NCBI RefSeq assembly: GCF_018986915.1
Contig: NZ_CP076723.1
Span: 1,335,501-1,399,500 of the forward strand
From: Geomonas oryzisoli
GTDB taxonomy: Bacteria; Desulfobacterota; Desulfuromonadia; Geobacterales; Geobacteraceae
Direction: 5' to 3'
Length of the DNA stretch: 64,000 bases
In this document: piece after piece, positions 1 to 4,964 of the stretch
Layout of the letters: the number at the start of each line of letters is the position of its first letter
How positions within the stretch are numbered: position 1 is the stretch's first letter
Translations under genes and position numbers: made by a program
The notes under the pieces: model-generated
Databases searched by the model: none
Seen by the model: the letters and a program-made list of their open reading frames with translations, nothing else
Told to the model about the DNA's origin: nothing

Positions 1-2565
1 AGCCGCACGCCGCTGCACAATCCCGCACTGATCGAGACGCTGCTCGGTATCGCCAGTTCCCGTGCCGCTCAGGAACTGGAGGCGATGAACCATCTCGCCG
101 TGCTGGACCTCAAGAAGTTCGCCATGGACAACATGAAGGACGCAGCGTACTGGATCCGTCCCGACGGCACGATCAGCGACGTCAACGGAGCCGCATGCGC
201 CATGCTGGGGTATAGCGAGGATGAGTTCCGCTCCATGTGGATCGGGCAGTTGCGCCCCGGGTGCGACGAGGAGTGCTGGCGGCAAACCTGGGAGTCGCTC
301 AAGGAACAGGGAAGTCTCCAGTTCGAGGCGACGCACCTCTCCCGCGACGGCCGCCTGGTGCCGGTCGAGATCACGGCAAATTACTTCAGCTATGCCGGGA
401 CCGAGTACGACTATGCCGTCGTGCGCGACATCACCGAGCGCAAGAAGATGGAGGAGACGCTCGAGCACCGGCTGGCCGTGCTCACCGACCCGATGGTGCA
501 CTTGGAAGCGGTCAGGATGGAGGATCTCTTCGACCTGGATGAACTGCAGGGGATCCAGGATGCCTTCGCGCAGGCTTCGGGCGTCGCCTCGATCATCACC
601 GATGCTGCCGGGCGGCCGGTCACCCGTCCGAGCAACTTCAGTTACCTGTGCAGCGAGATCGTCCGCAAGACCGAGCGCGGCCTTGCCAACTGCATGCGCT
701 CCAGCAGTTATCTCGGCAACCTCAGTCAAGGAGGCCTCGGGATGCAGCCCTGCCTGAGTGCCGGGTTGTGGGACGGCTGCGCTACCATCACCGTCGGTGG
801 GCGTCACGTCGGCAACTGGCTCGTGGGTCAGGTGCTGGACGAGGACGCGGACCTGGATCGGATGACCGCTTACGCCGACGAGATCGGGGTCGATCGCACC
901 GCTTACAGGGAGGCGCTCGGCAAGGTGAACCGGATGTCCCGGGAGCAGTTCAGGAAGGTCTGCGAGGCGCTGCACCAGATCGCCGGCCAGCTTTCCCGCA
1001 TGGCCGTGCAGAACGTGCAACAGGCGCAGCACATCTCGGAGAGGAAGCGCACCGAAGAGCGACTGCTGGAGTACCTGAAGGTGATCGAGTGCTCCCGCGA
1101 CCTCGTCTGCGTACTCGACCGCGACTACCGTTACCGCATGGTCAACGGCGCATTCCTGCGCTACCGCAACCTGACCACGGAGCAGGTGGTGGGGCGGACC
1201 GTGGCCGAGGTCGTCGGAGAGGAGCATTTCGCCCAGATAAAGCACCACCTGGACGCCTGCCTGGCCGGGCAGTCGGTACGTTTAGAGATGGAGCAGGCAT
1301 TCCCGGAACGCGGGGTCCGCGCGGTGACGGTGACCTATACCCCGGTCGAGGACCAGGGGGGCAACACCAGGATCGCCTGCGTGATCAGCGACCAGACCGA
1401 CAAGAAGCACCTCGAGGAGCAGCTCAGGCAGTCCCAGAAGATGGAGGCGGTCGGGCACCTCGCCGGTGGGATCGCCCACGACTTCAACAACATCCTCACC
1501 GTCATCGTGGGATACGGCAACTTCCTCGGGATGGACGGTTCGCTCTCCCAGCACCAGCACGAGCAGGTGGACCAGATCATCGCCGCCGCCGAGCGCGGCT
1601 CGCAACTCACCCGCGGGCTGCTCACCTTCAGCCGGAAGCAGGTCATGAACCCGCGCATCCTGGACCTGAACGCGCTGGTGGCGCAGGTGCAGACGTTCCT
1701 GCTGCGCATCATCGGGGAGGACATCGAGCTAAAGTTCAACCCGGCACAGGAGCAGTTGAACGTCTATGCCGACGCAAGCCAACTGGAACAGGTCCTGATG
1801 AACCTTGCCACCAACGCCCGTGACGCCATGCCCGACGGGGGGATGCTCACCATCCAGACCGGCTGGCAGCAGGTGGACGAGGCATACGCCAGGTCCCAGG
1901 GGTACGGCGATCCGGGACGGTACGCCTGCATCATCGTGTCCGATTCGGGCAGCGGTATGGACCGGGCCACGCGCGAGAGGATCTTCGAGCCCTTCTTCTC
2001 CACCAAGGCGGTCGGCAAGGGGACCGGCCTCGGCATGTCCATCGTGTACGGCATCGTCAAGCAGCACAAGGGGTTCATCAACGTCTACAGCGAACCGGGA
2101 GAGGGGACCACGTTCAAGATCTATCTGCCACAGGCCGCTGCCGAGGCGGGGGCGCACGCCCCCGAGGCGGACCGTGCCGCACCTGTGCCCGGAACCGAGA
2201 CGGTTCTCGTGGCGGAGGATGACGTGAACGTCAGGGGGCTGGTCGAGTCGCTGCTGAAGAAGTACGGGTACCAGGTGGTGCTGGCGGTGGACGGCAGCGA
2301 CTGCGTGCAGAAGTATCTGGAACACCGCGGCAAGATTGACCTGATCCTGATGGATGTCATCATGCCGGGGAAAAACGGCAAGGAAGCCTTCGACGAGATC
2401 AGGCGGATCGACCCGTCCGCCAAGGTCCTCTACTCAAGCGGATATACCGCCGACTTCATGAAAACGCGCGGCGTCTTCGACGACAACATCGACCTCATCA
2501 TGAAACCGGTGCAGCCGATGACGCTGCTGCACAAGATCAGGGAGGTGCTGGATAGAAAGGCGTAG
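1..2565 (+). CDS. Hybrid sensor histidine kinase (PAS-PocR-PAS-HisKA-HATPase-REC), 5' end outside the window
   Basis: The reading frame is open to base 1, and the residues before the first in-window ATG (base 85) read like the last helix of a GAF domain, so the gene probably begins upstream and has an N-terminal GAF domain. After that, counting from base 85, come a PAS domain (about residues 10-120), a PocR-type ligand-binding domain (about 145-310, with Cys-rich patches), a second PAS (about 325-440), a HisKA dimerisation helix with the phospho-accepting His in GIAHDFNN, an HATPase domain with N-box ([10 protein letters not shown]), DSGSGMD and GKGTGLGMS motifs, and a C-terminal receiver with LILMDVIMP. 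The protein is therefore a cytoplasmic phosphorelay kinase with an internal receiver. No partner regulator is adjacent in the window. A bidirectional terminator follows. Signal unknown; PocR domains in other proteins bind small organic ligands. Confidence 0.93.
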
Positions 2566-2622
2566 AAAGGCAGTATGAGGCTGAAAGGCAGGTTGAGGTT
2601 GAGGTTGAGAAAGGCACGTAGC

Positions 2623-2660
2623 AAAAAACGGGCACCCCGGAGACGGGTGCCCGTTTTTTT
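2623..2660. terminator. Bidirectional intrinsic terminator
   Basis: A stem of ACGGGCACCC with GGGTGCCCGT is flanked by A6 on the left and T7 on the right, so it can end transcription on either strand. It sits between the convergent kinase and Tim44-like genes. Confidence 0.85.
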
Positions 2661-2728
2661 CGTTTTCGCCGAAGCGTTACGGTGTCAGGTTCAGGTTTTT
2701 TGCTCAACCTCAACCTTGACATCGTTTT

Positions 2729-3694
2729 TCAGCCTCTCTGGTTTATCGCAGCCAGGCGCCAGGCGTTGTTGCCCACCGGCCTGGTGAAGGTCCAGTATTC
2801 CTCGAATTTGACCGGCTCGGTCTTGCTCCCCTCGATGACCGTGCCGCGCTCGTCGGTGGTGTAGTCGAGCAGGTTGGCGTAGATGAGGGCGGTTACGTAG
2901 TCCTGCCCCGCTTCCTGCCATACCTCGGCAAGCTCCACGCTGCGCACCGCGATGTTCTCCAGCCGGTTCACCCGCCCCTCGCGCAGCAGGCGCTCGATGT
3001 CCTCGCGGAACACCCCCTGCATCTCGGAGGTGAGCAGCGGGGAGAGCGCCTGCAGGTCGCGGTTCATCCATCCCCCCTGGATCCTGAAGAAGTTGTCCAT
3101 CACCTGGTCCTTGAAGCGGGCCTCGTCGAAACCGGGGTCCATCTGGCGCAGGTGCGACAGCCCGGTCTGGACGTCGTCCCGGACCGGTTCCTCCACGCGG
3201 TAGGAGGCCGGGACGCTCTGCTGGTAGGTGTCGTACCCCTGCGAGCCGTAGCCGGTCGAGACGCTCTGCAGCGGGGTGGTGCTGCGCCGCCTGCGCACCA
3301 TGCGGTAGATCATGTAGCCGATGCCGGCAAGAAGGATGATTTCGAAGAGCCCGATGCCACCGCCGCCGTAGCCCGCCCCGCCTGCGCCGGCGAGCCCCCT
3401 GAAGAGCATGCCTCCCAGGAGGCCGCCCGCGATGCCGCCGGCCATGCTGCGCAGGAAGCCGCCCCCGGCGGAGGGCTGTTGCATCTGCGGCTGCCCCATG
3501 GGTGAGGGCGCCGGCTGCTGGTAGGGGGTGGACTGGCGGTACGCGGTCCCCGGCGTCGAGTAGCTGCGGGAGCCGCGGCTGCCGATGGAGCGTCCTCCGG
3601 CGGCACGGGCATGGGCGCTGGTTTCCAGCACCGTGGCACTCAGCATCAAGACTGCGGCGAAGAGTGCGAAAGCTTTGGCGAAGTTGCGTTTCAT
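2729..3694 (-). CDS. Tim44-like domain membrane-associated protein
   Basis: A 321-residue protein with an N-terminal signal/anchor (about residues 8-28, ending near the Ala-rich AHARAAG), a Gly/Ser/Pro/Gln-rich low-complexity segment (30-85), a Gly-rich hydrophobic stretch followed by a clear membrane helix (about 112-133, GLFEIILLAGIGYMIYRMV), a basic RRRR stop, and a C-terminal Tim44-like domain (about 170-320) with the conserved FFRIQGGWMNRDL segment. Bacterial members of this family are membrane proteins of unsettled function; the domain is shared with the mitochondrial import motor subunit. It is the second gene behind the manganese riboswitch at 4069-4217, 27 bp after the ribbon-helix-helix gene, so it is probably manganese-responsive. 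This linkage is inference. Confidence 0.82.
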   Translation of the reverse strand: MKRNFAKAFALFAAVLMLSATVLETSAHARAAGGRSIGSRGSRSYSTPGTAYRQSTPYQQPAPSPMGQPQMQQPSAGGGFLRSMAGGIAGGLLGGMLFRGLAGAGGAGYGGGGIGLFEIILLAGIGYMIYRMVRRRRSTTPLQSVSTGYGSQGYDTYQQSVPASYRVEEPVRDDVQTGLSHLRQMDPGFDEARFKDQVMDNFFRIQGGWMNRDLQALSPLLTSEMQGVFREDIERLLREGRVNRLENIAVRSVELAEVWQEAGQDYVTALIYANLLDYTTDERGTVIEGSKTEPVKFEEYWTFTRPVGNNAWRLAAINQRG

Positions 3695-3721
3695 GTGGTT
3701 GTCTCCTGTGTGGTTGTAGGT

Positions 3722-3997
3722 TCAGTTACCGGCCAGTTGCAGCGGCTGCACCGGGATCCTTCCCGTGGTGCTGCGGATGCGTCCCTTGCGGAGCCCCTTG
3801 GCGAGCCAGAAGCCGATCGCCTCGCGCACCAGGTCCGACACGTTGAGCGAGGTCGCCTTGGTCAGGCGCTCCAGCAGTCGCTTCTCCTGGTCGCTCACCC
3901 TGAGCGACACGACGTTCTTCAGTACCGGCTCCCTGGTCTCCTTTTTCTTTCTGGCGGGTTTTTTCTTCACCTGGGTCATGTATTGTTTCTGTTCCAT
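3722..3997 (-). CDS. Ribbon-helix-helix (CopG-like) small DNA-binding protein
   Basis: A 91-residue basic protein. The start at 3997 is chosen because AGGAGAGG stands 7 bp before that ATG; a longer in-frame version would begin inside the leader. A Lys-rich N-terminus (KKKPARKKK) precedes a segment VVSLRVSDQEKRLLERLTKATSLNVSDLVREAIGFWL-type, which has the strand-helix-helix pattern of Arc/CopG regulators. It is the first gene after the riboswitch and is 27 bp from the Tim44-like gene, so the two are probably co-transcribed. It could be an autoregulator of that unit; no obvious operator dyad was identified. Function beyond DNA binding is unknown. Confidence 0.7.
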   Translation of the reverse strand: MEQKQYMTQVKKKPARKKKETREPVLKNVVSLRVSDQEKRLLERLTKATSLNVSDLVREAIGFWLAKGLRKGRIRSTTGRIPVQPLQLAGN

Positions 3998-4068
3998 ATT
4001 TTCCTCTCCTTTCGGGTGGTTACCCGTTCGCAAAGGGCGCCGTCACAGCAGGACGGCGCCTGTGACGG

Positions 4069-4121
4069 TAAAAAAAAAGACCTTTACCCGGGGCGACTGC
4101 TCGCTACAGGTAAAGGTCTTG
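4069..4121 (-). terminator. Riboswitch expression platform (intrinsic terminator)
   Basis: Reading the minus strand, AAGACCTTTACC pairs perfectly with GGTAAAGGTCTT over 12 bp and is followed directly by a run of nine T. The left arm contains the CTTTAC that otherwise closes stem P1 of the aptamer, so terminator and ligand-bound aptamer are mutually exclusive. This is the architecture of an ON switch. Confidence 0.88.
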
Positions 4122-4217
4122 CTGTTAAAAGAATTAACCTCGGGTCCGGGTGTTGCCACCGTCTTGACGAACCAAAGGTCGGCCATTTCTCCGGCCGATA
4201 GCTACTCCCCTTTACAG
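4107..4217 (-). promoter_or_regulatory. yybP-ykoY family (manganese) riboswitch aptamer
   Basis: On the minus strand the leader starts GTAAAGGGGAGTAGC, has an internal CGTCA, and ends AGCAAGACCTTTAC. These are the hallmark conserved segments of the yybP-ykoY aptamer, and the ends pair GTAAAG with CTTTAC as stem P1. Family members in E. coli and B. subtilis sense Mn2+ and usually control exporters such as MntP or TerC-like proteins. Here the first genes downstream are a ribbon-helix-helix protein and a Tim44-like membrane protein. A further 9-bp hairpin (CCGTCACAG/CTGTGACGG, 4040-4068) lies between the terminator and the first gene. Confidence 0.9.
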
Positions 4218-4223
4218 GGCATG

Positions 4224-4252
4224 ATAATAATAACGCCCCGTCCGGCTGTCAA
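4224..4252 (-). promoter_or_regulatory. Sigma-70-type promoter of the riboswitch unit
   Basis: TTGACA (4252-4247) and TATTAT (4229-4224) on the minus strand are separated by exactly 17 bp. The predicted start near 4217 coincides with the first base of the riboswitch aptamer. Confidence 0.85.
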
Positions 4253-4412
4253 CCCATTTTTGAAAAAAATCGTAAACGCCCCGTCATCAAATTAATATGT
4301 GAAACGGTTAATCTATTGCCGGATTGCTATACAATTGACCGGTTGCAAAAACCGATACCGGCCGCGCAGGCCGAAGGCATTTCGGCAACTCCGTTTAGTT
4401 CCGGGGGGCGAC

Positions 4413-4964
4413 ATGATCAGACCCGCCAGCAGCGTGATCCGTTACGCGCGATTCTTCAGGCTCGCCAAGGTGTGCACGGTGCTCGATTACGGCGCCGGAC
4501 TTTTGCGTAACGCGCTTTACCTCACCGAGGAAGGGTTCCAGGTTTACGCGGCCGAACTTCCTGAGCAGGTGAAGGCGCTCGCCTCCCATCCGGAGGCGGG
4601 CAGGCTGGCCGGGATCCTGACGGTCGGGGAACTGCCGCGGGCCGGGTTGTGCGTGGACCTGGTGGTTTGCACCTTCGTCTTCAATATCCTCGCCACGCGC
4701 AACCGGAGAAAACAGTGTCTGGACAACGTGGCGGGCAACCTGCGCGACGGAGGTTATTTCCTCGTTGAAGTTAACAGCAGGCACGACGACAACGTTCCTT
4801 GTGGATCGGTGCTGCAGCACTACTACAGCTGTGACGGCAACGCAAAGAGCTATACCCATATCGATCTCGACAGAGAGTTGGCGCCGTTTGGCTTCGAGCG
4901 CATCTGTCATTATTACAGCAGTCATGCCTTGGCGGCCTTGTACCGGCTGAAAGTGTTAAAATAA
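4413..4964 (+). CDS. Class I SAM-dependent methyltransferase-like protein
   Basis: A 183-residue protein with a Rossmann-type methyltransferase motif I (VLDYGAGLLRNALYL, about residues 25-39), an acidic residue after the second strand (VYAAELPE), a DLVVCTFVFNIL segment matching motif IV, and a GGYFLVEVNS strand. It lacks additional domains and its substrate is unknown. An in-frame GTG at 4299 would add 38 residues, but that stretch has a poor ribosome site and an unconserved-looking basic sequence, so the ATG at 4413 is preferred; that start also has only a weak GGGGCG site. The gene runs divergently from the riboswitch unit. Confidence 0.72.
   Translation: MIRPASSVIRYARFFRLAKVCTVLDYGAGLLRNALYLTEEGFQVYAAELPEQVKALASHPEAGRLAGILTVGELPRAGLCVDLVVCTFVFNILATRNRRKQCLDNVAGNLRDGGYFLVEVNSRHDDNVPCGSVLQHYYSCDGNAKSYTHIDLDRELAPFGFERICHYYSSHALAALYRLKVLK

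Follow-up and report, generated by a model that had tools for sequence, protein, structure and literature searches.

The window analysed here, a stretch of 64,000 nucleotides from the Geomonas oryzisoli genome (4,846,465 bases), carries on its minus strand a leader followed by genes for a ribbon-helix-helix (RHH) protein and a protein with a Tim44-like domain (Table 1). The leader is preceded by a promoter-like sequence, TTGACA-N17-TATTAT at 4252-4224 (-), which agrees with the consensus at 11 of 12 positions. It is the only promoter-like site listed for the region 2500-4400, for which shuffled sequences gave a mean of 0.4. Transcription would start just upstream of the aptamer. The two genes are separated by 27 nt, and both products were recognised by Pfam models, the RHH protein by PF01402 (28.6 bits, cut-off 20.5) and the Tim44-like protein by PF04280 (147.7 bits, E 3.4e-43, cut-off 29.6). 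When the RHH protein was compared to solved structures with phmmer, one weak match only was obtained (E 0.87). A preliminary description of the sequence had proposed a consensus-like promoter and, behind a switch, a unit of two genes specifying a CopG-like (RHH) and a Tim44-like protein; both were recovered, and the unit is followed by a terminator, the symmetry of which should make it usable for transcripts of both strands.

The terminator region is shared with a convergent gene at 85-2565 (+) for a sensor kinase of the PocR-domain/PAS type with a receiver domain. On the other side, the switch operon is adjoined by a gene at 4380-4964 (+) that is transcribed divergently and belongs to the methyltransferase/TehB family (PF03848).

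Table 1. Features of the riboswitch operon, with positions in the window
Feature	Position	Strand	Remarks
-35 element TTGACA	4247..4252	-	promoter-like pair, sequence checked
-10 element TATTAT	4224..4229	-	5 nt ahead of modelled aptamer start
yybP-ykoY (Mn2+) riboswitch aptamer, 110 nt	4109..4218	-	predicted from covariance model, covariation, core letters
P1.1 5' strand GUAAAGG	4209..4215	-	folding, sequence check
P1.1 3' strand CCUUUAC	4110..4116	-	also inside terminator 5' arm
Intrinsic terminator, 14-bp stem 4120-4107 / 4090-4077 and U-tract	4069..4120	-	predicted to exclude P1.1
RHH CDS, 91 aa	3722..3997	-	PF01402; Shine-Dalgarno AGGAGA at 4010-4005
Tim44-like CDS, 321 aa	2729..3694	-	PF04280; AF2 model; Foldseek
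Operon-closing terminator	2623..2659	listed on +	symmetrical: A-run, hairpin, T-run

Class of the aptamer

Along the RNA, the aptamer is arranged as P1.1, the loop GGGGAGUAG, P1.2, P2, P3.1, the loop CGUCA (L3), P3.2, a variable P4 and CAAGACC, the helices being named after what we take to be their counterparts in the yybP-ykoY class. A covariance model, R1, was built from 26 diverse aptamers of relatives, which were collected with a loose pattern and a 93% identity filter; E. coli alx was left out, and no E. coli sequence is contained. These 26 rows were aligned with plain MAFFT, not fitted to a structure, and RNAalifold then predicted 28 pairs, with compensatory changes on both sides in 16 of them. 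In P1.2, C-G and U-A replace each other in 12 of the 26 rows. The window aptamer reached 109.8 bits against R1, of which it is itself one row. When 101 copies were aligned by fitting to the model, 98.8% of the cells were paired compared to 19.9-53.1% with slid partners, and the covariation score of this fitted alignment was not reached by any of 500 shuffles. Within the four-way junction, P1, P2 and P3 are supported by covariation, and P4 (GUUAA/UUAAC in the window) was assigned by inspection.

The core letters of the window aptamer are GGGGAGUAG, CGUCA, CGG and CAAGACC. For E. coli alx they are GGGGAGUAA, CGUCA and GAGACC, and for E. coli mntP GGGGAGUAG, UGUCA and GAGACC. Their invariance in the 26 rows is partly built in, since the selecting pattern demands part of them. 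With filters switched off, R1 matched 501-base stretches of both E. coli switches in their leaders, mntP with 31.2 bits and alx with 25.7 bits, the 3' end of the latter being imperfectly aligned; with default filters, alx was detected among 83 sources (E 0.0029) and mntP was not found. By covariation, core letters and these matches, the yybP-ykoY aptamer proposed earlier is borne out, and at the level of sequence the membership of the window RNA in this manganese class is confirmed. With the known members (RF00080; alx and mntP of E. coli, and those of Lactococcus lactis and Xanthomonas oryzae) it has in common the junction architecture, the GGGGAGUA internal loop, the GUCA loop and the GAGACC/AAGACC 3' side, and copies in relatives also precede TerC and GDT1 genes. 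It differs in its downstream genes, RHH and Tim44-like, and in being unreported by RF00080.

A failure of this Rfam model had been named in the preliminary description as evidence against the assignment, and indeed no match was obtained in the window at E ≤ 10. Since in a comparable cmscan the E. coli mntP leader scored 41.6 bits at a cut-off of 45 and alx was not listed, weak results for control switches as well, the miss at the window says little, and RF00080 was set aside as an identity criterion because of its insensitivity. In a whole-genome search, RF00080 detected a further copy of the switch at C1:2532164-2532335 with 26 bits (E 6.1e-5), below the cut-off; the same copy, when submitted within locus L114, was not listed. 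Scores over the cut-off were found in two of 14 control genomes. These results suggest that a large branch of manganese riboswitches escapes the released RF00080 model. Other Rfam families listed at the window, SSRC10 (E 0.14), Pseudomonadales-1 (1.5) and L10_leader (2.8), were far under their cut-offs and were read as chance hits or as common terminator or core letters.

Terminator and predicted switching

A terminator competing with P1 had been proposed from the sequence, and the competition was detected again: CCUUUAC is common to both structures, the stem comprising 14 bp instead of the 12 bp given before. A pattern scan passed over this terminator because its 16-nt loop exceeds the loop limit of 8 in the scan. 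For the full leader, -64.3 kcal/mol (z -4.74) was calculated, and none of 200 shuffled sequences was equally stable. Among the transcript lengths folded, those of 113 nt (-37.4 kcal/mol), 116 nt and 130 nt had P1.1 in their minimum-energy structure, while other folds won over P1.1 at 120 and 125 nt. From 135-145 nt on, the terminator replaces P1.1, and it is the winning fold at 140-153 nt (-64.0 kcal/mol at 145).

Mn2+ as the ligand and the ON direction are suggested by membership in the class. At low cellular Mn2+, the RNA 3' of P4 would pair into the terminator, and RNA polymerase would stop at about 4069. At high Mn2+, the ion would dock the two legs of the four-way junction and P1.1 would be held. 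The 3' strand of P1.1 would then be unavailable to the terminator, so that a single mRNA would cover the RHH and Tim44-like genes. As Mn2+ holding P1.1 means that the terminator cannot form, the leader should be an ON switch. Docking of the junction by Mn2+ has been described (PMC6754395). The expression platform in the window is a terminator, whereas mntP has been described as a translational switch (PMC11647493).

Genes behind the switch

In DNA searches with the leader, 35 of 39 genomes yielded relatives, with between one and five matches per genome, not all of them complete; the leader was not found in the plasmids searched. R1 matched 117 of 141 genomes of the order of the host and 29 of 297 genomes drawn from the phylum. 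Twenty more distant copies are located before genes for HtpX (five), large TerC (three), GDT1 (two), a zinc-ribbon protein (two) or none of the query families (eight).

From more than 150 matches, a set of 118 copies was surveyed, consisting of the window and 16 Tim44 loci (17 in total, alx being omitted) and 101 others. Six were duplicates, leaving 112 distinct copies, all of which match R1 by construction. A promoter-like pair is present upstream of 109 of the 118 copies and a GGTC plus T-run terminator pattern behind 113, both counted with patterns of our own, the former a loose one, and without a shuffled control. Downstream genes were called by translated searches with named queries, as calling the longest ORF let antisense ORFs win at GC-rich loci, and the Pfam names of the families were taken from one example each. 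In the same-strand runs behind the 112 copies, genes for HtpX (62), Tim44-type proteins (55), RHH proteins (52, some of which may be wrong, as the threshold was E ≤ 1e-3 and low-complexity filtering was switched off), small TerC (49), UPF0182 (30) and large TerC (27) predominate; TFIIB-type zinc ribbon (15), GDT1 (9), FmdE (7) and AI-2E (3) are rarer. HtpX is specified by the first gene in 62 copies, small TerC in 21, RHH in 20, a Tim44-type protein in four, UPF0182 in three and a zinc ribbon in one, one copy having none. A recurrent gene order is HtpX-RHH-TerC-Tim44N-UPF0182. In 76 of the 112 copies, TerC or GDT1 is encoded on the same strand at a distance of up to about 4 kb; neither is present in the window operon.

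Two other copies are present in the window genome, C1:2532223-2532331 and C1:936045-936161, each located before htpX-terC (PF01435, PF03741). Because of these two further switches, joint induction across three operons may be expected: Mn2+ would induce TerC-type manganese exporters, the membrane protease HtpX and the Tim44-like protein together. In the second genome copy, a very long, near-perfect C/G-rich hairpin is situated between htpX and terC (L114:1600-1775 (-)). The intergenic stretch has a minimum free energy of -92.9 kcal/mol (z -4.58), and co-transcription of the two genes at this copy is uncertain because of this very stable hairpin.

Among the late genes of these operons, one for UPF0182 (PF03699) is frequent (30 of 112 copies, for example L205, L229 and L239); its product is an uncharacterised membrane protein about 890 aa long. 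The 55 Tim44-type genes fall into 31 with the Tim44 domain and 24 with the N-terminal part only. The latter are short, as at L122:2207-2677 (-), and specify a hydrophobic N-terminus, a Gly-rich part and a second hydrophobic helix. In each case the sequence extends for 1 kb or more beyond the gene, and no Tim44 domain is encoded there; the one short example scanned matched no Pfam family.

The survey of relatives for Tim44-like genes behind the switch that had been suggested in the preliminary description was performed with 48 genomes of the family. Of 50 Tim44 genes (51 rows, two fragments of G057:C46 being merged), 22 follow one of 97 switches on the same strand at a distance of at most 5 kb; by our own estimate, with about two switches per 4.6-Mb genome, about 0.05 would be linked by chance. 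Linked genes amount to 17 of 24 within the genus and five of 26 outside. As 28 of the 50 have no switch within 5 kb, a tie to manganese does not extend to the whole Tim44 family. Among the best 80 of 147 Tim44 loci, 16 harbor a switch within the flanking DNA, and in every one of these RHH, HtpX, TerC or GDT1 is encoded on the same strand as well, RHH in 13 of them. For the remaining 64, none of these four was found in 62, and at the same RHH setting RHH was detected in only two, L064 and L094; flanks extended to 3 kb at most, eight of the 64 had less than 1.8 kb upstream, and some switches may lie out of view. In a quick tree of 95 Tim44 proteins, with SH-aLRT support only and 42 of 92 inner branches weak, 31 switch-linked rows require eight changes compared to 26.4 for shuffled labels. 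At least three of the eight are forced by well-supported branches. From the contrast in neighbours and the clustering on the tree, we conclude that one subset of Tim44-like genes belongs with the switch and another does not.

Judged by gene neighbourhood, the window Tim44-like gene is thus a recurrent member of a predicted manganese-riboswitch regulon. The manganese or membrane role proposed earlier for its product gains from this recurrence, since a common switch and operons shared with TerC, GDT1 and HtpX in other genera are stronger evidence than a single window; the manganese response itself we infer. The gene could instead be a passenger without a role in manganese homeostasis, which captured a convenient promoter while the switch serves other genes, an explanation that would fit the 28 unlinked genes and the window-type operon in Geomonas, which lacks an exporter, but is rather unlikely given that the Tim44-switch link recurs in families f1, f3 and f4 in several operon orders, that TerC or GDT1 is encoded in the same run for 32 of the 55 Tim44-type genes, and that the switch label is clustered on the tree. 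We consider it very probable that the leader is a transcriptional Mn2+-ON antitermination switch of the yybP-ykoY class and that the Tim44-like protein aids the translocation or membrane machinery under excess manganese together with TerC and HtpX. Promoter, aptamer fold, competing terminator, gene order and a conserved regulon, all read directly from DNA, make this the best explanation.

Geobacterales are metal reducers that meet much Fe(II). An aptamer belonging to the class by descent might therefore sense another metal in these hosts, Fe2+ for example, or Mn2+ and Fe2+ alike, and PMC9481103 cites a study on the response of another metal riboswitch to Fe(II). The core letters common to the window and the E. 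coli manganese switches, as well as the genes for TerC and GDT1, two families of manganese exporters, that follow this RNA, argue for Mn2+ and leave such a change of ligand a low probability. A protein- or translation-dependent attenuator merely resembling a riboswitch, in which control is really exerted by the RHH protein, would account for the RHH gene behind 52 of the 112 copies, but is highly improbable, as the run examined lacks an RHH gene in 60 copies, R1 also matches alx and mntP, and no shared palindrome beyond the promoter was seen by eye in an alignment of upstream DNA from ten related loci. The second control layer that the preliminary description had ascribed to the RHH protein gained no support from this inspection or from the other results.

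The Tim44-like protein and its partners

The Tim44-like protein consists of a hydrophobic N-terminus with an AxA site, a Gly-rich part, a further hydrophobic helix and the C-terminal Tim44 domain. Its closest named relative among the matches listed, from Geomonas anaerohicana, is 94% identical. In the AF2 model (pTM 0.47, 121 of 321 residues with pLDDT <50), residues from about 180 to 319 mostly show pLDDT values of 93-97, and helices are predicted at 2-30, ending in the AxA motif, and at 116-138, ending in RRRR. Because of RRRR after the second helix, the Tim44 domain is probably cytoplasmic according to the positive-inside rule. Comparison to solved structures with phmmer gave no match at E ≤ 0.01. 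Foldseek detected the C-domain of human Tim44 (2cw9, E 1.2e-07, rmsd 2.9 over 153 columns), ranked mitoribosomal chain d, which we take to be mL45, above it with slightly lower E-values, and found plastid division domains of ARC6/PARC6 at E<1e-3. Both Tim44 and mL45 act as tethers close to a protein-conducting channel of a membrane. The C-terminal fold is the same in mitochondrial Tim44, also a PF04280 member, and in chain d, but identity is about 20% or less, and the bacterial protein differs by its Gly-rich part and a hydrophobic helix of its own. This likeness in fold points to a possible role in translocation. As TerC, HtpX and the Tim44-like protein share operons, its likely function would be to sustain protein translocation as well as membrane quality control when manganese is high.

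To our knowledge, no Tim44-like or UPF0182 protein has been characterised in this kind of bacterium. The ligand-specific switch before their genes offers a testable condition, manganese, and partners, TerC and HtpX; by switch and neighbours, the Tim44-like family would be connected with manganese and with the upkeep of the membrane. In B. subtilis, SecY, SecDF, HtpX and FtsH co-purify with MeeF, a TerC protein. FtsH becomes essential once MeeF and the other TerC protein, MeeY, are both missing, and meeY is riboswitch-controlled (PMC10550928). TerC and HtpX, operon partners here, are thus associated there by pull-down, not by operon, and the main text of that study is without Tim44. The two proteins, otherwise connected by this pull-down in Bacillus (PMC10550928), are joined here by order-wide genome evidence. 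In Vibrio parahaemolyticus, mneA and terC are located behind a manganese riboswitch and are induced by manganese (PMC13274385), so that there, too, TerC and another exporter follow the switch; the abstract contains no Tim44-like, HtpX, RHH or UPF0182 gene.

In the literature searched, subscription papers and supplements excluded, nothing was found joining Tim44, riboswitch and manganese, or UPF0182 and riboswitch. For HtpX with yybP-ykoY, the paper listed was the TerC study (PMC10550928), which for HtpX with manganese and riboswitch was joined by a Vibrio riboflavin paper. A 2013 survey of RNA-motif regulons states that the delta-proteobacterial lineage lay outside its analysis, and htpX, terC and Tim44 are absent from its main text (PMC3766115). 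The switch class is known, and its target genes appear to be new. Tentatively, and with considerable doubt, TerC, HtpX, Tim44-like, UPF0182 and RHH proteins could be regarded as one Sec-translocon module, a manganese-responsive regulon for membrane-protein quality control in the Desulfuromonadia. The RNA would read manganese, export would be combined with protection and metalation of crossing proteins, and the Tim44-like protein would be a bacterial, manganese-induced tether of the translocon or the ribosome.

According to a review (PMC9481103), tandem manganese switches are lacking. At one locus (G063:C82, L164), two complete promoter-switch-terminator units were found at 3846-3954 and 4827-4935 (-). 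A touching tandem switch, considered for this genome, was dropped, since a distance of about 980 nt, occupied by an ORF, separates the units. This ORF of about 130 aa, preceded by the upstream unit, resembles a small membrane protein.
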